Part shown: piece by piece, positions 4,349 through 18,000 of the stretch
Numbering within the stretch: position 1 is the stretch's first letter
Layout: each line of letters begins with the position of its first letter
Source: a virus
IMG/VR virus record: IMGVR_UViG_3300008113_000003
Location: 142,297 to 206,296 of that record
DNA length: 64,000 bases
Reading direction: 5' to 3' (one strand)
The notes under the pieces: generated by a model
Seen by the model: only the letters and a program-made list of their open reading frames with translations
The model's database searches: none
Told to the model about the DNA's origin: nothing
Position numbers and translations under genes: made by a program

Positions 4349-7300
4349 TTATATGTTATCGAATGATACGTTTTGTGGAGTTACTGTAAATTCAAGTTCA
4401 ATGAATTCCAAAGTAGGTGTTGGTTTGATAAAGATTTTACCTTTTAAAGTATTTCTATCGTTATCTTCAACGTCCATTGCAACGCTAACTCTAAAGTCTG
4501 TTAAACCTCTTTCTTTTCTGATGTTATCCAAGATTGGGTTAACCAAAGACAAGAATTGATTTCTAACTGTGGTATCATTTGGATCGAATAATAATCTCTT
4601 AGATACACTCATGATCAATCTTCTCGCTTGTAACAACAATCTTCTGATGTTCAATCTATCAAGAGCACTTGATTTAACCTGCAAGTTTCTGTTACCCCAG
4701 ATAACAACCCCAACGTCTGAATAAGTCGCTAATGGGTTAATTCTACCTGGATATAAAATATCTCTTGCTTCTTGGTCAAGAACTATACGAGCTCTATTAC
4801 ATTTAACTAAACCTCTATTGTAACCAGCAGTTGCAAACCAAGGGAACGCTACGTTATCTGTATAAGCCATATTTCTTACTACCTCAGCAGTAGGTGGGAT
4901 ATACAAGTTTGCGTTATTGTCTGTATCTGTGATTTGTATCCAAGGATAGTAAACCGCAGTGTAGTTAGAATCGATGTCAGTGTTTTCTAATTCATCAACG
5001 ATATCTTCAGCAAAATACCAGTTTTCAGTATCTGATGGGTTGTTGTTGTTTAACAACTTGATATCAGGTAATGTTGGTAAATAAATCGCATCCAATCTCT
5101 TTTCTTCAACAACTTCAATAGCGTCTCTAACCAAATCAGTGTTGTTTAACACGTCAATACCAGGAGTTGCCAAGATGTTGATAGCGGTTTCTTCTGGGTT
5201 TTGGAATGTTCTGATACCGTACATTGTTGCATAGTAGTCAGAAGTACCGAATAACTCAGCGTACTCAACATTTGTAAATGTATCGAATGTACCAGCTACG
5301 AAACCAGTTCTACCGATTTTGTACTCATCTGTGTTTGTTCTGTTAACTCTATAAGCATCCCAACCATCAAAACCACCAGCAAATAAAGCTGTGAATTTTC
5401 TTGTTCTCATGTTATTATAAGGGTGAGTTGTTGTTCCGTCAACCACAATTGGGTCAACAAATGAAGCAACACCAACCGCAAAAACTTGTTCTCCAGTAAC
5501 AGAGTCAACAATGGTACTAGCATTGATATCCATGTGGAAACCTTTTGTTTTTGTTGTATAATCATCACCAGTATTGTAGGCGTTGTCACCTAAGATACTA
5601 ATTTTACCTTTAAACAATAATAGGTCTTTATCAAATCCAAATTGGCTTGAGAAACCTAAATAGTTTTTAGTTACTCTATCACCACTAGAAACTGTAGCAT
5701 TAGCAAATGGTGGGTTGTAAATTGTGTCACCAGGTGCATAATATTTCAATTTGTAAGGCATTTCAGGAACAGCTGTTGCTGTGTAACCACTAGCACTATT
5801 TGTTCTAAATTCGTAACCTTCAAAACCAGCTGGTACACCATCAGTTGGTGCGTTTACAGCCATTTCAAGAACAACATAAGCGCTCTTTAATGGGTATTTG
5901 TTATCAATTGTACCTATTTTTCTACCAACGAAATTGTCTAATGACTCATCCATCGTACAATCAACAAATTTTTCAATTATTGATACAGCTCTATCTGTGT
6001 CGCTAAATGATCTGATGTAGATATCAAAAGTTTTCTTAGATAAATCAACATTAGCGATTGAAGCTTTGATTTCAGTGTTAGCACTTGTACCGTCAGAAAT
6101 TGAAATTAATCTGAATAATCTTTGTGGTAAACCACCTCTTAACTCAGATACAAAGAAAGGTGTTACTGGTGATTGATATTGGAATCTATAGTGATCCCAG
6201 TTATTAACAGATGTTAATTCACTGTATAAACCTTTAATTTTACCACTTAACCAACCAAATTTCAGAGAGTTATCATAAACTTCCTCAACATAGATTTGAG
6301 AATCTTTGTCAGATGGTGTAGTACCGATTACTTTTTTGATATAGTTAGATTTTGTGCTATCTAAAGAAACTGTATAAGAGAATGTACCGCCAGTTGGGTT
6401 TGCTGTTGTACCAGTTAAATCAAAAGCTAAATATGGGTCGTTAACAACACCTGTTGGAGCGACCATATCTAATGAATTAACTTTATAACCTAACACATCT
6501 GAAGTGTAAGTACCTCTACTTCTAACGGTTGCAACGTTTTTGTTGTGACCTTCAGCGAAAGGATCAGCTGTTAACGTAACAGTGAACAATTCTAATTTAC
6601 CGTTAAGTGTGTGAGCACCAGCACCTGTAAATGTATGGCAATATAAAGCAAATGATGGTCCACTGTATGTCTCGGTAGCGGTATTGTACGCTAACTCATT
6701 ATTTAAAATATAAGCGTCTCTATCACTTGTTGGAACTGTGAACGGTAATTCATATGCGTCAATATAAACTGGGGTTATACCATGTGTAGCCGCATCAACC
6801 GTTAAATCAGTATCCATATCGTCAGTCAAAAGACCCCAATATAAAGCGTTTCCGTTATAGAAATCAGCATTAATGTAACTACCAACAGTTGTAAAGAATT
6901 GGTTAAACACGGTGTCAAAGTCAGTTGTAGCAACACCAGTTAAGTTAGCGATATAATCAATAAGATCGGTGTTACCAGAGTTACCAGTAACATAAAAACT
7001 ATTGTTATTCGTGTCAACTTTAAAATTAATGGTTGTTTGTGTAATACCAGTGTGTGATAATGTTGATTCATCACATGCACCTAATGTTTTAATAACCCAA
7101 GCCATACCAGCATCATAGCCAGATAATCCTAAAAGTCTTGTAACATACAATTGGTTTGATTGTGTTAAATACTGTTTTGCTATGTATGGTAATTCATACT
7201 TAACAATTTGTGTATTTTTAAATTTTTCTGGATTAGTACCACCAAAAGTAGTCTTAAATTCATCAAAATTTCTGATGAATATTGGTTGGAACGCTGGACC

Positions 7301-7414
7301 CTTTAAGGTTTCACCCACTACACCTAATGTTGTAACACCAACTGTCTCAGTTGTGAATGTTAAATCTTTTTCGGTTGTGTAGACACCTGGAGATGCATAA
7401 ACTTTGTTTGCCAT
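4349..7414 (-). CDS. gp18: Tail sheath protein, T4 gp18 family, enlarged
   Basis: The N-terminus (YASPGVYTTEKDLTF, GVVGETLKGPAFQP) and the C-terminal domain are diagnostic of gp18. In the latter, RRLLLQARRLIMSVSKRLLF near residue 925 is followed by FLSLVNPILDNIRKERGLTDF and a terminal beta segment ending in PQNVSFDNI. Sheath subunits wrap the tube and contract to drive it into the cell. At 1021 aa it is much longer than T4 gp18 (659 aa). The extra length lies between about residues 90 and 780, rich in Thr/Asn/Gly/Asp, consistent with surface-exposed insertions on the sheath exterior. It has a late promoter motif 37 nt upstream and a strong terminator after the stop. It is preceded by the gp15- and gp14-like genes, as in T4 order. 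Confidence 0.95.
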   Translation of the reverse strand: MANKVYASPGVYTTEKDLTFTTETVGVTTLGVVGETLKGPAFQPIFIRNFDEFKTTFGGTNPEKFKNTQIVKYELPYIAKQYLTQSNQLYVTRLLGLSGYDAGMAWVIKTLGACDESTLSHTGITQTTINFKVDTNNNSFYVTGNSGNTDLIDYIANLTGVATTDFDTVFNQFFTTVGSYINADFYNGNALYWGLLTDDMDTDLTVDAATHGITPVYIDAYELPFTVPTSDRDAYILNNELAYNTATETYSGPSFALYCHTFTGAGAHTLNGKLELFTVTLTADPFAEGHNKNVATVRSRGTYTSDVLGYKVNSLDMVAPTGVVNDPYLAFDLTGTTANPTGGTFSYTVSLDSTKSNYIKKVIGTTPSDKDSQIYVEEVYDNSLKFGWLSGKIKGLYSELTSVNNWDHYRFQYQSPVTPFFVSELRGGLPQRLFRLISISDGTSANTEIKASIANVDLSKKTFDIYIRSFSDTDRAVSIIEKFVDCTMDESLDNFVGRKIGTIDNKYPLKSAYVVLEMAVNAPTDGVPAGFEGYEFRTNSASGYTATAVPEMPYKLKYYAPGDTIYNPPFANATVSSGDRVTKNYLGFSSQFGFDKDLLLFKGKISILGDNAYNTGDDYTTKTKGFHMDINASTIVDSVTGEQVFAVGVASFVDPIVVDGTTTHPYNNMRTRKFTALFAGGFDGWDAYRVNRTNTDEYKIGRTGFVAGTFDTFTNVEYAELFGTSDYYATMYGIRTFQNPEETAINILATPGIDVLNNTDLVRDAIEVVEEKRLDAIYLPTLPDIKLLNNNNPSDTENWYFAEDIVDELENTDIDSNYTAVYYPWIQITDTDNNANLYIPPTAEVVRNMAYTDNVAFPWFATAGYNRGLVKCNRARIVLDQEARDILYPGRINPLATYSDVGVVIWGNRNLQVKSSALDRLNIRRLLLQARRLIMSVSKRLLFDPNDTTVRNQFLSLVNPILDNIRKERGLTDFRVSVAMDVEDNDRNTLKGKIFIKPTPTLEFIELEFTVTPQNVSFDNI

Positions 7415-7451
7415 ATTTAGTTAATTTTATTTATTTAATTTTATCTTATTC

Positions 7452-7460
7452 ATAAATATC
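7452..7460 (-). promoter_or_regulatory. Candidate late promoter of the sheath gene, GATATTTAT
   Basis: Ends 37 nt before the gp18 ATG, in the 103-nt gap after the gp15-like gene. The distance is identical to that at the tube gene. Confidence 0.6.
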
Positions 7461-7517
7461 AGATTTTTTACCAAAAAACCAGAATACCTCTTCATTTTTA
7501 AAATTCTTTATTTATTT

Positions 7518-8285
7518 TTAAGTATTTTCCGTTATTGTAAAAGTTCTACTAATCGCTGGTGTTACAATATAATCATCGGGATCTGATATAAACCCTTGTA
7601 GGTTAAAATTGTATAACTGTACGTAAAACCTTTTATTATTAAGGTCAGTAACTTGACTTTCATCTGAAGAGTCTTCTAACACAATTGGTATATAGTGTCC
7701 GTTAACTACAGTATATGCCTGCCTGCTTTGAAAATTTTTTAAAACAGTGGCGTTAAATTTGTTTAGTTCTTGCTGTCTATAAGCAAAAATTCTAACATCA
7801 TAGGTAATATCAACTGGAATTGGTTGAGGTATTTTATAAACATCAACCCCCATTTTATTACCATCCCAAGTAGGTACTTCCGCATATGTATAATGTCTAC
7901 CAGTTGGTATATTATAAATCAAAGAAGGGTTTGTGCCGTATTTCGTATCTGGGTTTCTAACAATATTAACAAAAGGTATTTTTAAATTTTTATACTCATC
8001 TGAAAATTTCCATGTTTGTGAAAATTCGTTCCATTTTTGAATACCCATCATAAACACAGGGACTTTTTCACCATCAATTGAAATTGCCAATTGATTAGTT
8101 ACAAAATCTTTAAAACCCCTATCCAAATCAATATGCATAACACCTTTTGGTAGGTAGGTATCGTTGTTGATGATCATATCTTTCATATTTTCAGCAGCAC
8201 CGCTTTGCATTGAGTAAGGATACTCGATGTTAGCACGTTGTTGTGTTAGATTGATCTTCTTTTTAAATGAACCTGGTAAAGCCAT
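7518..8285 (-). CDS. Tail completion / sheath stabiliser protein, gp15-like
   Basis: This 255-aa protein is close in size to T4 gp15 (272 aa), whose hexamer caps the tail and joins it to the neck. Its pattern follows gp15: PIPVDITYDVRIFAYRQQEL near residue 155, then a helix, then a segment on 'V.G.YIPIVLED', then the closing strand with F..NLQGFISDPDD. The gene sits between the sheath and a gp14-like gene, the T4 order. Its start lies 2 nt after the upstream stop, so it is cotranscribed and coupled with the gp14-like gene. Sequence identity to T4 is low, so the assignment rests on this pattern and on synteny. Confidence 0.62.
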   Translation of the reverse strand: MALPGSFKKKINLTQQRANIEYPYSMQSGAAENMKDMIINNDTYLPKGVMHIDLDRGFKDFVTNQLAISIDGEKVPVFMMGIQKWNEFSQTWKFSDEYKNLKIPFVNIVRNPDTKYGTNPSLIYNIPTGRHYTYAEVPTWDGNKMGVDVYKIPQPIPVDITYDVRIFAYRQQELNKFNATVLKNFQSRQAYTVVNGHYIPIVLEDSSDESQVTDLNNKRFYVQLYNFNLQGFISDPDDYIVTPAISRTFTITENT

Positions 8286-8287
8286 AA

Positions 8288-8821
8288 TTATACCCCTTTA
8301 AATACGTTAGGATCAACGTTTGTACATTTTATTCTTCTAAAATAACCAGAATAACCAAATTGAGTACTTGGGTTATCCGTATTTACAGTATCGTCATCAA
8401 ACACAGTAAAATATTTAAAATTATTTTGTCTGTCAGAATAACCGATAATATCACCGTAACTTATCTCAGCATTTTTTTCGTCAAGTTGTTTTTGTAAAAC
8501 AGTAAACTCAAGATTACCATAGTCTTGGTACCTTAAATTTCCGTTTGGTGAGTATGATTTATTTTCACCGTTTTCAAGGCTAAGTATAACTTTTAATTCA
8601 ACTGGTGATAAAAATCTAATATCGTTTACATTACTTTCACCGTAAACGTCATCCATTTGGGTGTTAACTCTGTCAACTCTAAATAAAACAACAGTAAAGT
8701 TCATGTCCCCCTCGATTAGTTCTGTTGCCATATCAAGCTCAAGTTGAAAATCCTCTTCATCGTAAAACCTATTCAACCTTGTATTTGGTATTCTAGTTTT
8801 TCTTTCCATTGTTCTTTTCAT
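8288..8821 (-). CDS. Neck protein, gp14-like
   Basis: This 177-aa protein has features compatible with T4 gp14, the neck protein joining the portal complex to the tail. These are an N-terminal basic segment, a beta strand FTVVLFRVDR (about 42-51), then EISYGDIIGYSDRQNNFKYFTVFDDD around 118-143. The last recalls the 'GDLIYFP...FEI' stretch of gp14. It is shorter than T4 gp14 (256 aa). Order (gp14-like, gp15-like, sheath, tube) matches T4. The late promoter motif abuts the first ATG (8819-8821), so transcription may begin inside the first codons. The second Met (M5, 8807-8809) lies 12 nt from the motif, close to the spacing at other genes, and may be the real start. Confidence 0.5.
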   Translation of the reverse strand: MKRTMERKTRIPNTRLNRFYDEEDFQLELDMATELIEGDMNFTVVLFRVDRVNTQMDDVYGESNVNDIRFLSPVELKVILSLENGENKSYSPNGNLRYQDYGNLEFTVLQKQLDEKNAEISYGDIIGYSDRQNNFKYFTVFDDDTVNTDNPSTQFGYSGYFRRIKCTNVDPNVFKGV

Positions 8822-8830
8822 ATAAATACT
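8822..8830 (-). promoter_or_regulatory. Candidate late promoter, AGTATTTAT, abutting annotated start
   Basis: Coding-sense AGTATTTAT lies immediately before the ATG at 8821 and 12 nt before the in-frame Met at 8809. On the plus strand this reads TATAAATACT, like a T4 late promoter, but orientation at the other 14 sites favours the minus reading. Confidence 0.5.
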
Positions 8831-8862
8831 TTGATTTATTAATGAATTGACTTTGTCAGAAA

Positions 8863-8891
8863 AATTTATTATTATTAGATAATAATAAATT
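8863..8891. promoter_or_regulatory. 29-nt perfect AT palindrome upstream of helicase gene
   Basis: A 12-bp perfect stem (AATTTATTATTA / TAATAATAAATT) with 5-nt loop TTAGA, 18 nt before the helicase ATG. It could be a 5' UTR hairpin or an operator. A TTTG about 20 nt upstream (near 8851) hints at a host-type -33 element. Confidence 0.45.
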
Positions 8892-8909
8892 AAAGGAAAA
8901 GGAACGTAA

Positions 8910-10688
8910 ATGCAGTTACCGATAGAAAAGAGAGCGCTGGATATATTAAAAACATATAAAGGGTCAAATGACTACATATTGGGTATACAAAAGACCTACT
9001 TTACGAGTAAAAGTTTTATACCAACAAAAAACCAAAGTGATTACATTATTAAAAACGGTAATGTTGATCCAGTTGTTGTTAACAAATTATTCGACATTAG
9101 TAAATCTTGTAGACCTTTTATTGCTGAGCAATTAAAACTAGATTTTATACCAGACAAAATATTCATAAACAAATTACTTAGCAGAAAGGAGAACTTTTTA
9201 CACATTTATGGTTGTTTTGAAGAGGGTTGTGATCAATACTACACCTTCTATATTTCAAAGGAATGTGTTAAAGTTAGCAGACCTGAACCAGAAATTGACC
9301 CAACAAAATATGAAAGGGACCCAAAACCGCACCAAATAACAGCGATTAAAAAATTATTGACAAACGATAAATTTATCTTGGCCGATGAAATGGGCCTTGG
9401 TAAAACCACGTCAGCTATTATTGCGGCTATGGAAGGTCAATTCAAAAAAATATTGGTTGTTTGTCCAGCATCACTTAAACTTAACTGGAAAATTGAGATT
9501 TCAAACTATGATTCTCCAGATAATATCAGTGTTGTTGACGGAAGTAATCTTACTGTAAAAAAATGGACAATTGTAAACTACGACATTCTTAAGAATTTTC
9601 ACCATTTACCTAGACGTGGTGTTAAAACAGCTGATCTACCTATTTCACCGATTGACTATCATAAATTTGATTTAGTTATTGCTGATGAAGCTCATTATCT
9701 TAAAAACGCTGCATCAAATAGAACCAAAATATTTAATGATTTTGCCATGAAAATACCAGTAAGATGGTTATTGACAGGTACTCCGATCACAAATAAACCA
9801 ATCGATTTCTATAATCTTTTATATTTGTGTGAATCACCTGTTGCCTCTAACTGGGTTGGTTATGTTAAAAGATATTGTGCTGGTAGACAATTTAACCGAA
9901 AAGGTACCAAACAAAAGTATTGGGTTTGTTCAGGATCATCAAACCTAGAAGAGTTGAAAGATTTTTCAGCCGATGTAATTTTAAGAAGAACTAAGAACGA
10001 TTCTATTGATTTACCACAAAAGACGATCAAACCTGTTTATTTACCACTAGAATTCTCAACTAGCTATAACGCCTATATTGATGAGTATGAAGCTTGGATT
10101 GAGGAAATGGAAGCTGCTGGTGAAAAACCAACAATTACCGATCACTTAACAAAATTGATCAAAGTTAGGCAGTTATTATCTTACGATAAGATTGCACACA
10201 CAATTGAAATGGCGGAAGAAATGTTGGAGAATGGTCAGAAAGTAATTATATTTAGTTGTTTTACAAACACAATCAAAGAGTTACAAGCTCATTTTGGTAA
10301 AAAAGCTGTGACAATTGATGGGTCGGTTTCAAAAGAAAAAAGACAACAAGCTGTTGATGCATTTCAAAATGATGATAAAATAACTGTTTTCTTGGGTAAT
10401 ATTGTAGCCGCTGGGGTTGGTTTAACTTTAACTGAAAGTAGCGTTGTAATATTCAATGATTTGGATTGGACACCAGCTAATCACATGCAAGCTGAGGATA
10501 GGGCACATAGAATTGGTCAACAAAACCAGGTTCATATCATTTACCCATTATTTGCCGACACCTTAGATATGATTATGTATAAGGCGCTCCAAAGTAAAAT
10601 GAAGATTATTAGTACGATTATGGGTGATAACCCATCTGAAGAGGAAATATCAGTTGGTAAAGAGGTTATTATGCACCTTAGACGTTAA
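8910..10688 (+). CDS. SNF2-family DNA helicase/ATPase (UvsW-like role)
   Basis: The 592-aa protein has all SNF2 superfamily 2 motifs. They are the Q-like KPHQITAIKKLL (139-150), Walker A DEMGLGKTT (159-167), motif Ia VVCPASLKLNW, DEAH (259-262), LTGTP (288-292), and a C-terminal RecA domain ending in AEDRAHRIGQ (motif VI). The closest style is the SMARCAL1/HepA-like group common in large phages. In T4, UvsW has the analogous task of annealing and branch migration during recombination-dependent replication. An unusually good Shine-Dalgarno (AAAGGAAAAGG) lies 6 nt before the ATG. An N-terminal domain of about 130 residues has two Cys pairs near 102-107 but no recognised fold. The 3' end overlaps the convergent gp88-like gene by 4 nt. 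Confidence 0.88.
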   Translation: MQLPIEKRALDILKTYKGSNDYILGIQKTYFTSKSFIPTKNQSDYIIKNGNVDPVVVNKLFDISKSCRPFIAEQLKLDFIPDKIFINKLLSRKENFLHIYGCFEEGCDQYYTFYISKECVKVSRPEPEIDPTKYERDPKPHQITAIKKLLTNDKFILADEMGLGKTTSAIIAAMEGQFKKILVVCPASLKLNWKIEISNYDSPDNISVVDGSNLTVKKWTIVNYDILKNFHHLPRRGVKTADLPISPIDYHKFDLVIADEAHYLKNAASNRTKIFNDFAMKIPVRWLLTGTPITNKPIDFYNLLYLCESPVASNWVGYVKRYCAGRQFNRKGTKQKYWVCSGSSNLEELKDFSADVILRRTKNDSIDLPQKTIKPVYLPLEFSTSYNAYIDEYEAWIEEMEAAGEKPTITDHLTKLIKVRQLLSYDKIAHTIEMAEEMLENGQKVIIFSCFTNTIKELQAHFGKKAVTIDGSVSKEKRQQAVDAFQNDDKITVFLGNIVAAGVGLTLTESSVVIFNDLDWTPANHMQAEDRAHRIGQQNQVHIIYPLFADTLDMIMYKALQSKMKIISTIMGDNPSEEEISVGKEVIMHLRR

Positions 10689-11903: not shown

Positions 11904-12995
11904 ATGAGAATAAATCCAACCGAAAAGCAAAAAATATACAAACAAGCCAAACATAGGCTTGGGGCTCCTATTAGGAAGATTCAATTAGAAGATGAACAAA
12001 TGGACTCACTTCTTGAAATCGCTACAGAAGATTATGTTGAGTTTATTAATAATTGGTTGATTGAACACCAATGGCCGAGTTTGATTGGTTTAAGCGTTAG
12101 CGAAGCTGATTTAACCAGGGCTTTTATTTATAGAACTTTTGATTTAGTCACACAATACACATACTCCTACTCAAAAATTGTTGGTTTGGGTGCTGGTGAG
12201 GGTGGTTATGTTCTTAAAAAAGATTACGTTGAGTTAGTTAAGGGTCAACAAATATATGAGATTCCAGCAAATAGAGAGATAAATGAAGTGTTATGGTTTA
12301 CACCAGCTTCATTGGATCAATCTGTAATCGACCCATTCTTAGGTGTTTGGAACAATCAATTCGGTGCCGAATATATGGGTTTGGGTAGTTATTACATTTT
12401 ACCAGCTTTTGACATTTTAATGAGAACAACGGATAGAAACCTTAAAAATAGGATGATTCGTTCTGAGTTAATATATAAGATCACAAATGCGCCTGATGGC
12501 AAAAAATATCTTCATTTAATGAATACGCCAGGTGGTAAATTTGACTTTAGGGGTTCAATGCTAGATCAAGGTAAATGTTGGTATTGGTATTATGATATTA
12601 ACCCATTAATTAAAGATGATTGTTTGGCAAAAAACAAAGATATCATTAAATCACCAGCTGATGTTCCTCTGGATGATATATCATTTGATGACCTAAATGA
12701 TCCAGCTAAAGTTTGGATTAGAAGATATTTTATTGCTTTGTGTAAAGAAACTTTGGGTAGAGTAAGAGGTACTTTTGGTGGTAAAATACCAGTTCCAGAC
12801 GCAAATATGGAAATTGAATACCAGTCACTTTTATCAGAAGGTAAGGATGAAATGGTTACACTTAAAAAAGAATTAGAGGACAGAATGTTCAAATTAAACC
12901 CATTGGAAATTCTTAAAAGAATGTCTACTGAGGCTGAAGAAATTAACAAAGCTCTTAAATACAGAGCGTTCCAAAAACCAATTAAGATTATATAA
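11904..12995 (+). CDS. gp13: Neck (head completion) protein, T4 gp13-like
   Basis: The 363-aa protein aligns in pattern with T4 gp13 (309 aa). It has RLGAP at residues 18-22, followed by an acidic helix that ends in DEQMDSLLEIATEDYVEFIN. The C-terminal domain has WIRRYFIALCKETLGRVRG, FGGKIPVPDANMEIEY, then a Leu/Glu helix ending in LNPLEIL, as in T4. gp13 and gp14 form the collar that seals the filled head and docks the tail. Start choice: the frame is open 57 nt further upstream, but that would cross the promoter motif. ATG at 11904 lies 16 nt from the motif and starts with the conserved-looking helix. The stop overlaps the next ATG (TAATG). Confidence 0.85.
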   Translation: MRINPTEKQKIYKQAKHRLGAPIRKIQLEDEQMDSLLEIATEDYVEFINNWLIEHQWPSLIGLSVSEADLTRAFIYRTFDLVTQYTYSYSKIVGLGAGEGGYVLKKDYVELVKGQQIYEIPANREINEVLWFTPASLDQSVIDPFLGVWNNQFGAEYMGLGSYYILPAFDILMRTTDRNLKNRMIRSELIYKITNAPDGKKYLHLMNTPGGKFDFRGSMLDQGKCWYWYYDINPLIKDDCLAKNKDIIKSPADVPLDDISFDDLNDPAKVWIRRYFIALCKETLGRVRGTFGGKIPVPDANMEIEYQSLLSEGKDEMVTLKKELEDRMFKLNPLEILKRMSTEAEEINKALKYRAFQKPIKII

Positions 12996-14650
12996 TGTTT
13001 TATACAGCCCTAGATAATAGTGATTATTTTGATTTAATTGTCACAAAAGATTGTCGTGATTTTTATCGTGATTATAACGAATGTAATTTAATAAATATTA
13101 ATATTACTGAAAATCTATGCTCAATACCTGGGAGTATTCAAACAGAAGAAGTTGAATTAAAAAACATAACGTTAACAGGTTATGATAATTTTTTTATACC
13201 CAACGGAGAGATATCAAATATCAATAATTTCACGGGTGACACAATAGGATACACTGTGAATGAAAATATTGTTGTTGACGTTAATAAAGATTTAACATAT
13301 GTTATTGAAACTGGTGATACTTTTTGTTTTCATGAAATATCTGGTTATAGCGGAAATTACTGTTATGAGATTGATCACCTAAATGTTGACAATGGTATAT
13401 ACTATAATAAATTAAATGGCGGTTTTTACCAGGGATTCTACAAAATTTTTGGTGAAAATGTTGAGTGGTTCCCAGCTAGAGCAAAAATGGGTTGGACCGT
13501 TGATATGGTTGTCCATTTCCCAATGGATGTACCAGGTAGTTCAGGGTCATCTGGTAGTTCAGGGTCTTCTGGATCATCTGGCAGTTCTGGTTCTTTTGGG
13601 TCTTCTGGATCATCAGGTAGTTCTGGGTCATCTGGTAGTTCAGGGTCTTCTGGATCATCTGGTAATTGCGTAACTCTAAATAAAGTATATCCAAATAATA
13701 GCGGTTTTATTTTTTATCTGGGGACAAGAGCTGAAAATAAATTTGCTGATAAAACTGATATTGAAATTCAAAGATTTGAGGATAATTACGACATAGTACC
13801 TCTAAACACAACAAATTTATTTACCTATAATAACCTAATAACATTAAATGGTTTAACGAATTATATTGGTTATTTTAATTATTATAATGGTTTAATGTAT
13901 ACTGGTAGAAATTATACAGTAGACTCACAACCTTTACAATACCACCAAGAATATAGTGATCTCACGTATAATGCGTTTGGTATAAGAGTCACCAATGATG
14001 GTAGAATCGGTTACAGAACAATATACCCAACTGATATATGTTATACAGGCGTAACCCAAGAAGTTAGTGGTATAACAAACAACTCGTTTATTATGGACCC
14101 AATTGATGACTGTGTTAATTATACAAGATCACTAATTGTTACAAAATATTTTACAATAGAGGAGTGTTATACAAAAAACCCTGTTATTGATGTAACGGAA
14201 AATAAATTCTTGAATATAACTGGTGTATTTGAAAGAGATTTTTCTTATGGGAATAACTGTCAGTTAAAATATGGTGATTATAAAAAAGGTACCTTCTCAA
14301 TATACCTTAATGGGTTCTTAGTTTTTAGGAATAGGAATTTTGTTGAGGTGATACCACATGAATTAGATATTGATTCGAAATACCAGGAAGGTGTCCCCTT
14401 TAATATTTCATTTGGTGGTGGGACCCAAAGCTTAATCGACCCTGTGGTATTTGATGAAAACAAAGTACTTGGTACTGTTTTAGAAAGATTTTTTGCTGGA
14501 ACATTCCTAGGTGGTGTTAAATCAATTAAAATGTATTGTGTACCATTGTACACTGTTGAGGTTAAAAAAGAATTTAGAAATATTGCGGGTATATATAATT
14601 TGCCGATAATAAAGGGTGGTAGACAGATATTTATAAAAAATTTATTCTAA
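12995..14650 (+). CDS. Fibre or adhesin-type structural protein with (Gly-Ser-Ser)n linker
   Basis: This 551-aa protein has three parts. The N-terminal 180 residues are beta-rich and may bind the virion. A low-complexity tract of 14 GSS triplets (residues 181-223; one Ser to Phe) follows. The C-terminal part looks like a lectin/LamG-type beta sandwich, with KGTFSIYLNGFLVFRNRNF and later VPFNISFGGGTQSL. Such architecture fits a head or tail decoration or receptor-binding protein. The flexible linker resembles the repeats of the large fibre at 59707-64000. It starts at TAATG after gp13 and ends in TAATG with the next gene, so translation is likely coupled. Function is inferred from composition. 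Confidence 0.6.
   Translation: MFYTALDNSDYFDLIVTKDCRDFYRDYNECNLININITENLCSIPGSIQTEEVELKNITLTGYDNFFIPNGEISNINNFTGDTIGYTVNENIVVDVNKDLTYVIETGDTFCFHEISGYSGNYCYEIDHLNVDNGIYYNKLNGGFYQGFYKIFGENVEWFPARAKMGWTVDMVVHFPMDVPGSSGSSGSSGSSGSSGSSGSFGSSGSSGSSGSSGSSGSSGSSGNCVTLNKVYPNNSGFIFYLGTRAENKFADKTDIEIQRFEDNYDIVPLNTTNLFTYNNLITLNGLTNYIGYFNYYNGLMYTGRNYTVDSQPLQYHQEYSDLTYNAFGIRVTNDGRIGYRTIYPTDICYTGVTQEVSGITNNSFIMDPIDDCVNYTRSLIVTKYFTIEECYTKNPVIDVTENKFLNITGVFERDFSYGNNCQLKYGDYKKGTFSIYLNGFLVFRNRNFVEVIPHELDIDSKYQEGVPFNISFGGGTQSLIDPVVFDENKVLGTVLERFFAGTFLGGVKSIKMYCVPLYTVEVKKEFRNIAGIYNLPIIKGGRQIFIKNLF
13535..13663 (+). repeat. (GGN-TCN/AGT-TCN)14 tract encoding Gly-Ser-Ser repeats
   Basis: A 129-nt in-frame repeat of 9-nt units with synonymous variation (GGT AGT TCA, GGG TCA TCT, GGA TCA TCT). 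Unit number could vary by slippage or recombination without loss of frame. Similar codon strings recur in opposite orientation in the fibre gene beyond 60200. Confidence 0.85.
14626..14634 (+). promoter_or_regulatory. Candidate late promoter inside the end of the fibre gene, GATATTTAT
   Basis: Lies in the last codons of the 12995-14650 gene and ends 15 nt before the next ATG (14650), the same spacing as at intergenic copies. Confidence 0.5.
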
Positions 14651-15097: not shown

Positions 15098-18000
15098 ATG
15101 ATTATGGCCGAATACAAGATTTCCCTTGAAGAGATAGAAAAGTTTTTAAATGGGCACGATGATGAGAAATACATCGTGAATGTTGAGTACGATGCCGAAA
15201 CTAATCTGATCCATAAAGTTAAACAAGATCCAGAAAGGGGTAATTATATTGAAACCGAACCATTACTCGCTTTCATGTGGATTAAAAACCTTAATAAAAT
15301 TAAGGAACTAACCAATTTTTACGGTAATAGTGATGCCAAAATTAAGTCCGCTAGACAAAGATTTGGTATTGAAATCAAAGCTTTAGGTGGTGACCACCCA
15401 AAGTTAATTGACGGTTATAGGTATTTGGTTACATGTAATCAGGGTCACAAAAGAATGTTAGATTTTTTTAGAGAGGGTGGTATTTTTGTTTACGACAAAA
15501 GACATGATATTAACACTCATTTCTTAATGATATCACCTGTCGAGCAGTATTTTATACATACTGGTAAGCGTTTGTTTAAGGGATTTGAAGAATACGATGA
15601 GATTCACAAATTTATATTTGACTTAGAGACAACAGGGTTAGACCCAGCCATCAATCGTATTTTCTTGATTGGTATCTACACCAATTTAGGCGTTAGAGAA
15701 ATCATACCCGTTGAAGATGATGATGAATCTGAAAGACAAGCCATTACAAAATTCTTTGAGAAAATTAATGAGATTAAACCAACCATCATTGCTGGTTATA
15801 ATAGTGCAAACTTTGACTGGCCATTCTTCTTTAAAAGATGTGAAATTCTTGGTTTAAATATTCAGGATATCGCAATTACCTTAAAAGTTGGTGAATTAAT
15901 CAACAACAAAGATAGTATTTTAAAGCTGGGTAACGAGGTTGAGGACTACACCCAAACTAATATGTTTGGTTATAGCGTTATCGATATCATACACTCAGCT
16001 AGACGTGCACAAGCAATTGATTCAAGCATGAAATCGGTTGGTTTGAAATATGTTTGTAAGTATAACAAGATTGCAAAAAAGAATCGTGTTTATATTGTTG
16101 GTGATAAAATTGGTAACACATGGTACTCAAAAGATAAATTTTATTTTGATGATAGAACAGGTGCCTACTCTAAAACAAAACCAGCTTTGGAGTTCATGGA
16201 TTACATTCGTAGAGAAGATGTTCAGGCTAACCCAGATAAAGTGTTTGTTTTTGGTGATAATATTTTAAGACAAGGACTTGGCGGTCAGGCAAAAGAAATG
16301 CGTGGAGAACCGAATGTCATTGGTATCGTAACCAAGCACACCCCAGAATCAACACCAGAATCTTATTTCAATGATAAGGATTTTGAAATACTTAAAAAAC
16401 ACATAGATTCCGATATTAATCAAATAATCGAAAAGATTAAAGAAGGTAAGACAATCGTTTTCCCTAAAATGGGTATCGGTACAGGTTTGGCTCAGTTAGA
16501 TATGAGAGCCCCAAAAACATTCAAGTATCTAAAGGGTTTATTAAGTGCGTTACGTGATTACATTAATACTTTTCAAGAAGTTGATGGTAGATATATCGTT
16601 GAGCGTTACTTGATTGATGACTTATGGGAAACTATGGAAGTGGACGATGTTTATAACCAGTCATCGTTCTTGTTAGCTAAATTAGTACCAACAACATATC
16701 AAAGGGTTTCTACCATGGGTACAGCTGGTCTATGGAAATTATTGATGATGACGTATTCATTTGAAAATGATTTGGCAATACCAGTATCGGATGTTAAAAG
16801 AGATTACACAGGTGGTTTATCAAGATTATTTAAAGTTGGTTATTCAACCACTTTAAGAAAGATGGACTACAACTCACTTTACCCAGCTATTCAGTTGGCC
16901 CATGATGTATTCCCAAGTGTTGATGTTAACGGTGCGATGAAATCGATGTTAAAGTATTTCCACACCGAACGTTTTAAAGCTAAAAACTTAGCCAGCAAAT
17001 ACAAAAAAGAAGGTAATTACCAATTGGCTGACAAATATAAACGTAAACAATTACCACTTAAGATCTTTATTAACTCGATGTTCGGTGCCCTTGGTGCACC
17101 TATGGCTTTCCAATGGGCTGAAATTGATGTCAGTGAACGTATTACTTGTACGGCAAGACAATACTTAAGATTAATGGTTACATTCTTCCTTAAACGTGGG
17201 TACACGCCTTTAGTACTTGATACGGATGGTGTTAACTTCATGGCACCAAAGAACGGTGAGCCATTTACCTATATCGGTAAGGGTTTAAATGATGAGGTTG
17301 AAGCTGGTAAAGAATATACTGGTGTTAAAGCTGTGGTAGCTGAATTTAATGACACCTATATGCGTGGTGAGATGGGTCTTGGTTTAGATGGTATTTGGCC
17401 AGCGACAATTAACTTATCTAGGAAAAATTACGCTTTACTAGAAGATGACGGGTCAATTAGTTTAACTGGTAACAGTATCAAATCAAAAGCTATGCCCGTT
17501 TACATTGAAGAGTTTTTGGGTAAGGGTATGAAAATGTTATTGAATGGTCATGGCTATGAGTTTGTACAATATTACTACGAATACGCTGAGAAAGTGTGTA
17601 ATAGAGAAATACCTTTAGCTAAGATTGCCACAAAAGCTAGGGTTAAGAAGTCGATAAATGCTTATATAAATCGTGGTGGTGATAAAAATGGTAAGCAGTT
17701 GGCAAAACAAGCTCACATGGAGTTGGCAATAAAACATAATCTTGATGTTAATCTTGGTGATACAATTTATTATGTTAATAATGGTAAAACAAAATCACAT
17801 GGTGATGCCCAAGAAAATAAGGATGGGGAAATGTATGCAACATTGGTACCAAATGAAATTATTGAAAACCAACCAGATTATATTGGTGAATACAATGTAC
17901 CTAAATATTTAGAAGCCTTAAATAAAAAGGTTGAACCTTTATTAGTTGCGTTTCCACTTGAAGTTAGAGATAAAATTTTAATTAAAAAATCTGGCGAAAG

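Follow-up and report, generated by a model that had tools for sequence, protein, structure and literature searches.

The locus described here raises the question of why the replicative polymerase of a phage would carry a complete, normally stand-alone domain within its proofreading exonuclease, when that domain was gained, and what it might do there. The window, a stretch of 64,000 nucleotides, covers 142297-206296 of a virus record that is 206,296 bases long, and contains a gene for a 1034-residue family B DNA polymerase (Table 1). The PHROG 262 DNA polymerase profile matched residues 144-871 of this protein (E=3e-43), and a Foldseek search with the full-length structural model retrieved archaeal family B polymerases (E=1e-29). 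The Exo I, II, and III motifs and polymerase motifs A, B (KIFINSMFG, from residue 655), and C are all intact, identifying the protein as a family B polymerase with a 3′-5′ exonuclease. Elsewhere in the window, a tail-fibre-like open reading frame (12995-14650) contains a long GSSGSSG repeat and gives collagen-like PHROG tail matches, and a tail sheath open reading frame on the minus strand (4349-7414) encodes 1021 residues, which is unusually long for a sheath protein.

The initial annotation placed a DUF7831-like domain between Exo II and Exo III and proposed an HMM search as a check. Pfam matching and motif alignment confirmed the placement, and the sequences quoted in that annotation are present at the places it gave. 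PF25176 (DUF7831) matched with E=2.6e-44 and 150.3 bits (cut-off 27) over profile positions 2-116 of 118, indicating a near-complete domain and no chance match. PHROG 2072, a family of unknown function, covers the same stretch, and the entire 206,296-base record holds only this one copy of DUF7831. The proposal that the domain has its own methionine start was not upheld. Met367 is replaced by Thr or Ile in relatives (EFTDNI in L015, DFIDNI in L016), and a relict start codon was rejected because the residue is not conserved. The domain begins a few residues earlier, at residue 365 (or ~363 by alignment), and stand-alone homologues begin some residues upstream of the equivalent position.

Table 1. 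Features of the polymerase gene and of the inserted domain (positions in the window).
Feature	Residues	Positions	Strand	Basis
Family B DNA polymerase gene with inserted domain	1034 aa	15098..18202	+	ORF; Pfam DNA_pol_B and DNA_pol_B_exo1
Exo I, FDLETTG	174-180	15617..15637	+	sequence and alignment
Exo II, YNSANFDW	234-241	15797..15820	+	sequence and alignment
Strand before insert	347-350	16136..16147	+	DSSP of full-length model
Stretch absent from insert-free relatives, which have a loop of a few to ~20 aa instead	~359-491	16172..16570	+	tblastn breakpoints
DUF7831 domain	365-479	16190..16534	+	PF25176; PHROG 2072; AF2 pLDDT 94.9 as single domain
GDN-x4-GLGGQA motif	386-398	16253..16291	+	Gly-rich loop after the domain's second strand (DSSP of models)
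Thr-Lys pair	T412-K413	16331..16336	+	family alignment; marginal profile alignment to DarG
GIGTGLA loop	459-465	16472..16492	+	after the domain's fourth strand
Strand after insert	493-496	16574..16585	+	DSSP of full-length model
Exo III, YLIDD	504-508	16607..16621	+	sequence and alignment
Polymerase motif A, DYNSLYP	590-596	16865..16885	+	sequence and alignment
Polymerase motif C, DTDG	708-711	17219..17230	+	sequence and alignment

Structure prediction, also proposed in the initial annotation, gave a domain that folds alone and a separate unit in the context of the polymerase. The AlphaFold2 model of the isolated domain reached a pLDDT of 94.9 and a pTM of 0.88, and its strands and helices recur in the full-length model (pLDDT 87.0, pTM 0.76), where the insert lies between two short strands, as fits insertion at the tip of a β-hairpin. 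The inserted DUF7831 is predicted from these models to fold as an independent unit. In an alignment of 67 DUF7831 domains, the GDN-x4-GLGGQA motif and Lys413 are nearly invariant and Thr412 is invariant, and the glycines of the GIGTGLA loop are invariant or nearly so throughout the family; the copy in the window has all of the family motifs (GDN, GxGGQA, EPN, TK, and P-x2-GxGTG). A Foldseek search of the PDB with the isolated domain gave no convincing match (best E=0.055, TM at most 0.4), and a sequence-based search for a close PDB homologue gave chance matches only, such as that of triosephosphate isomerase with the DUF7831 alignment profile. Significant Foldseek matches in BFVD were to DUF7831 of phages and giant viruses, and to large proteins of uncultured "cr"-series phages, which are probably crAss-like.

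With the polymerase and DUF7831 as queries, scans of IMG/VR revealed both carriers and non-carriers of the insert. About 32 polymerase contigs carry it (L002-L022, the fragment L042, L066-L072, L080, L083, and L144), while ~70 related polymerases (L023, L025, L028-L030, and L148-L215) do not. The insert-free relatives are 38-56% identical to the polymerase and lack the domain at exactly the same site, with tblastn breakpoints at ~357-360 and 490-492 in L023, L025, and L028, and similar ones in most of L149-L215; in most non-carriers, the alignment stops at ~357-368 and resumes at ~472-492, after a short loop. The segment measures 200 residues in the window polymerase and other carriers, compared with 77-95 residues in the eight non-carriers compared, and the net gain in size due to the insert is ~115-120 residues. 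An ancestral exonuclease subdomain was ruled out, since the domain is missing from ~70 relatives. A DNA-level search for relatives among named phages found none. By eye, translations of three insert-free polymerases showed intein-like insertions at motif C (L028, 6780-7841; L029, ~6920-9380; L030, ~5700-8380), and in the latter two a homing endonuclease-like open reading frame lies between two intein parts (L029, 7556-9250; L030, 6334-8223).

In a maximum-likelihood tree of 47 polymerases, from which the insert columns were removed and the non-polymerase L088 was left out, a single branch (100/100) separated all 20 carriers from the remaining polymerases, requiring one change, and the same was found in 200/200 bootstrap trees. 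When the tree was rooted on L023/L028/L030, the carriers were nested among non-carriers, a direction of gain rather than loss that rests on this chosen, long-branched outgroup and on the large number of lineages without the insert. The inserted domains likewise formed one clade among 81 DUF7831 domains (SH-aLRT 97), and the carriers differ from one another by up to ~39%. Together, the single carrier branch, the single insert clade, and the depth of divergence show a single in-frame insertion, in the common ancestor of one clade of phages, that is too old to be called recent but was not present at the base of the wider family. The claim of an in-frame insertion of a whole domain into a loop was, thus, sustained, whereas its recency was not, since the domain was gained before the divergence of a clade in which identity between members is only ~61%. 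In L009 and L021, the polymerase body groups with the clade of the window, and the insert with motif-decayed inserts. Recombination may have exchanged the insert, or rates may have been uneven.

DUF7831 was not named in the literature searched, and its genomic surroundings elsewhere were surveyed. Among 106 proteins encoded one or two genes from stand-alone phage DUF7831 were NUDIX (5), CTP_transf_like of NadM type (3), YAcAr-SLOG (2), and NAPRTase/NAMPT (1) proteins, together with helicases, DNA methylases, a gp32-type single-stranded DNA binding protein (SSB), a family A DNA polymerase, and a 3′-5′ exonuclease. The enrichment is small and suggestive only, as NAMPT (2) and YAcAr (1) also turn up in a distal control set, encoded three to six genes away, along with DprA-like proteins (2) and at most one NUDIX. 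Of the 36 bacterial loci, 13 have an SSB gene (PF00436, E=3e-28) immediately upstream of DUF7831, and all 13 are acidobacterial; DUF7831 is usually followed there by genes for a conserved 550-residue protein, which matches no Pfam family, and for a second SSB. YAcAr-SLOG lies upstream of DUF7831 in seven acidobacterial loci, and DUF4326 (E=4e-11) directly downstream in four. The cluster, seen in L326 (1752-5662) and in similar form in L315, L317, L318, L320, L323, L327, L330, L333, L334, L336, and L337, looks like a mobile or defence-type island, and may represent one evolutionary event, because the bacteria that carry it are related to one another. In L324 and L328, a gene for a MobL relaxase precedes one for a protein of >1100 residues that begins with DUF7831. 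The domain also occurs within giant phage open reading frames (L074, L094, L112, L119, L121, and L117), joined in L074 to N4 virion RNA polymerase domains and in L112 to cpYpsA-SLOG and SNase; these giant proteins are possibly virion-carried polymerases or polyvalent proteins.

SLOG, DUF4326, Macro, NADAR, and Nudix domains have been described as a phage NAD+/ADP-ribose counter-defence network, and phage fusions of such domains to nuclease, helicase, and replication parts have been read as NAD+/ADP-ribose counter-defence (PMC7824862, PMC9503650). The two Gly-rich loops after strands, the SLOG, DUF4326, NUDIX, and NadM-type genes, and the proximity of SSBs, a relaxase, and polymerases suggest a nucleotide module that works near single-stranded DNA. 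Our preferred reading, a tentative one that is quite possible though short of probable, is that the tethered module acts at the replication fork on an ADP-ribose-type modification, either removing it or recognising it. DUF7831 would be an α/β nucleotide-binding module, with its GDN..GxGGQA and GIGTGL loops each following a strand, and would belong to the NAD+/ADP-ribose toolkit of phages and mobile elements against host defences. It would act where single-stranded DNA is exposed, and its tether to the exonuclease domain would place it at the fork. There, it could recognise, or strip off, an ADP-ribose-type nucleotide adduct carried by the strand that is being copied or proofread. The module may in this way protect or license replication, perhaps shielding it from host defence. 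The initial annotation had suggested a nucleotide- or ADP-ribose-type role. Gene context (SLOG-YAcAr, DUF4326, NUDIX, NadM-like, and NAMPT-like neighbours) favours that suggestion, while no fold or HMM match proves it.

Direct tests for known ADP-ribose-related families were largely negative. No HMM match to Macro (PF01661) was found in the polymerase, in 14 DUF7831 sequences, or in the whole record; NADAR (PF08719) matched neither the polymerase nor any other part of the record, and SLOG gave no HMM match to the DUF7831 domain. Foldseek placed no macrodomain fold among the top 50 PDB matches and none at E<0.05, and macro matches to the domain in BFVD were only at E of 0.44 or worse with TM<0.3. 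YmdB, used as a macro probe in the viral contigs, retrieved no relatives, and the PADLOC defence families gave one stray match only. Against a profile of 83 DarG-type macrodomains, DUF7831 aligned marginally (hhalign E=0.0028, probability 11%), with a score that none of 150 full column shuffles attained but one of 100 block shuffles did; hhalign of DUF7831 directly to one DarG sequence found nothing. When the marginal alignment was extended, the Thr412-Lys413 pair fell on Thr79-Lys80 of TaqDarG, in a residue numbering derived from the printed database chain; Lys80 is the catalytic residue of TaqDarG (PMC5179494). This similarity is a lead only. A more specific form of the proposal is that DUF7831 serves the polymerase as a built-in DarG-like de-ADP-ribosylating domain, which would clear host-made ADP-ribose adducts from the single-stranded template at the fork and so resist DNA-ADP-ribosylating defences; the family would then be a new branch of such enzymes, one that goes with SSB, SLOG, and DUF4326. 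This form is quite improbable.

Pairwise comparisons showed how the insert has been maintained. In close pairs, dN/dS was 0.03-0.18 for the insert and 0.015-0.053 for the rest of the polymerase, and the dN of the insert was the higher of the two in nearly all pairs; values for distant pairs are rough because synonymous divergence is near saturation. The insert is, by these ratios, clearly kept by purifying selection. The family motifs have decayed in some carriers. GDN is changed to DEN, SDN, or SEN, and GGQA to GQQS, GEQS, or GEES, in L010 and L014-L016, and the GIGTGLA loop reads PGNGES in L010, GIGNDSS in L014, GIGADSS in L015, GIGTDSS in L016, and PGSGLS in L009 and L021, the last two having lost this loop only; L015 also has TR in place of TK. 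The domain is, nevertheless, of full length in all six of these carriers, and in L010 and L014-L016 it remains in frame and under purifying selection, with a dN/dS of 0.06-0.11 among L014-L016. A second DUF7831 copy that could account for the decay was found in none of the 12 carrier records searched, most of which are fragments.

The motif decay shows that the presumed ligand activity is dispensable in these lineages, and in L010 and L014-L016, where the motifs decayed and the fold was kept, the domain is probably a structural or binding platform. Extended to all carriers, the same idea makes the insert an exapted scaffold, serving today chiefly as a structural element or as a dock for a partner such as SSB, the clamp, or a helicase, with the ancestral ligand chemistry no longer needed. 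The SSB, gp32, and helicase neighbours of DUF7831 elsewhere fit such partner binding, whereas the clade of the window and the deep carriers L066-L072 and L144 retain intact motifs, a surprise if ligand binding had been of no importance at any time since the insertion. As a general account, the scaffold is possible, if on balance rather unlikely.

A role as an allosteric sensor, in which binding of a soluble NAD+- or ADP-ribose-derived host signal by the domain tips the polymerase towards synthesis or towards proofreading, would suit the insertion site within the exonuclease domain and the NUDIX, NadM-like, and SLOG neighbours of DUF7831, and phage fusions of SLOG to a 3′-5′ exonuclease have been interpreted in this way (PMC9503650). 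The hairpin tip may, however, be distant from the active sites, and loop length already varies among the insert-free relatives (the 77-95-residue segment), which makes the site resemble a permissive surface loop. Such a sensor is judged unlikely, though it and the scaffold are close rivals of the preferred reading. The same permissive loop, together with the elevated dN of the insert, could accommodate a neutral passenger, retained because precise excision is rare. That account is very unlikely, given the low dN/dS across a clade so divergent, the intact family motifs in most carriers, and the finding that no carrier shows a frame break or a partial deletion of the insert. Polymerases are common intein hosts, and the relatives L028-L030 have the intein-like insertions mentioned above, yet a self-splicing or mobile, intein-like insertion has a practically negligible likelihood here, and intein identity was rejected, as no intein family matched the 1034-residue protein and the insert is a DUF7831 domain that matches no intein or endonuclease family and occupies a loop rather than an active-site motif.

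If the preferred reading, action on an ADP-ribose-type modification at the fork, is right, the phage has a counter-defence or nucleotide-sensing module built straight into its replicative polymerase. The find ties the unannotated DUF7831 to single-stranded DNA machinery and to the NAD+/ADP-ribose conflict network, and the insert-free sister polymerases and natural motif-loss variants provide ready controls, so that the question is directly testable.

Comparison with known systems shows which parts of this arrangement are familiar. Stand-alone DUF7831 (PF25176; PHROG 2072), found in phages, giant viruses, and some bacteria, is the same domain and shares all of the invariant motifs; stand-alone phage copies are up to ~52% identical to the insert, and a Tupanvirus member matched the inserted domain in BFVD with a Foldseek E of 1e-14. 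Those other copies are mostly proteins of ~130-220 residues or parts of giant proteins, whereas the present one lies within a polymerase exonuclease domain. The family B polymerases of large phages (PHROG 262; for example, L149 and L025) have the same motifs and fold, with up to 56% identity in aligned segments, but lack the 115-120-residue insertion at this loop. Macrodomains of the DarG/TARG1 type have a like order of elements, with a Gly-rich loop after a strand, Thr-Lys after a strand, a helix, and a G-x-G loop after a strand; DUF7831 differs from them in being shorter and in giving neither an HMM nor a Foldseek match. The phage SLOG, Macro, NADAR, and DUF4326 fusions are a parallel in kind, as conflict-type nucleotide domains are likewise joined to, or placed beside, nucleic-acid enzymes, and in the available sections of these accounts no insertion inside a replicative polymerase was found (PMC7824862, PMC9503650). 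The joining of a conflict-type domain to a replication enzyme is, thus, already known in kind, while the new points are the location of the insert, within the proofreading domain of a replicative polymerase, and the link of DUF7831 to SSB, SLOG, and DUF4326.
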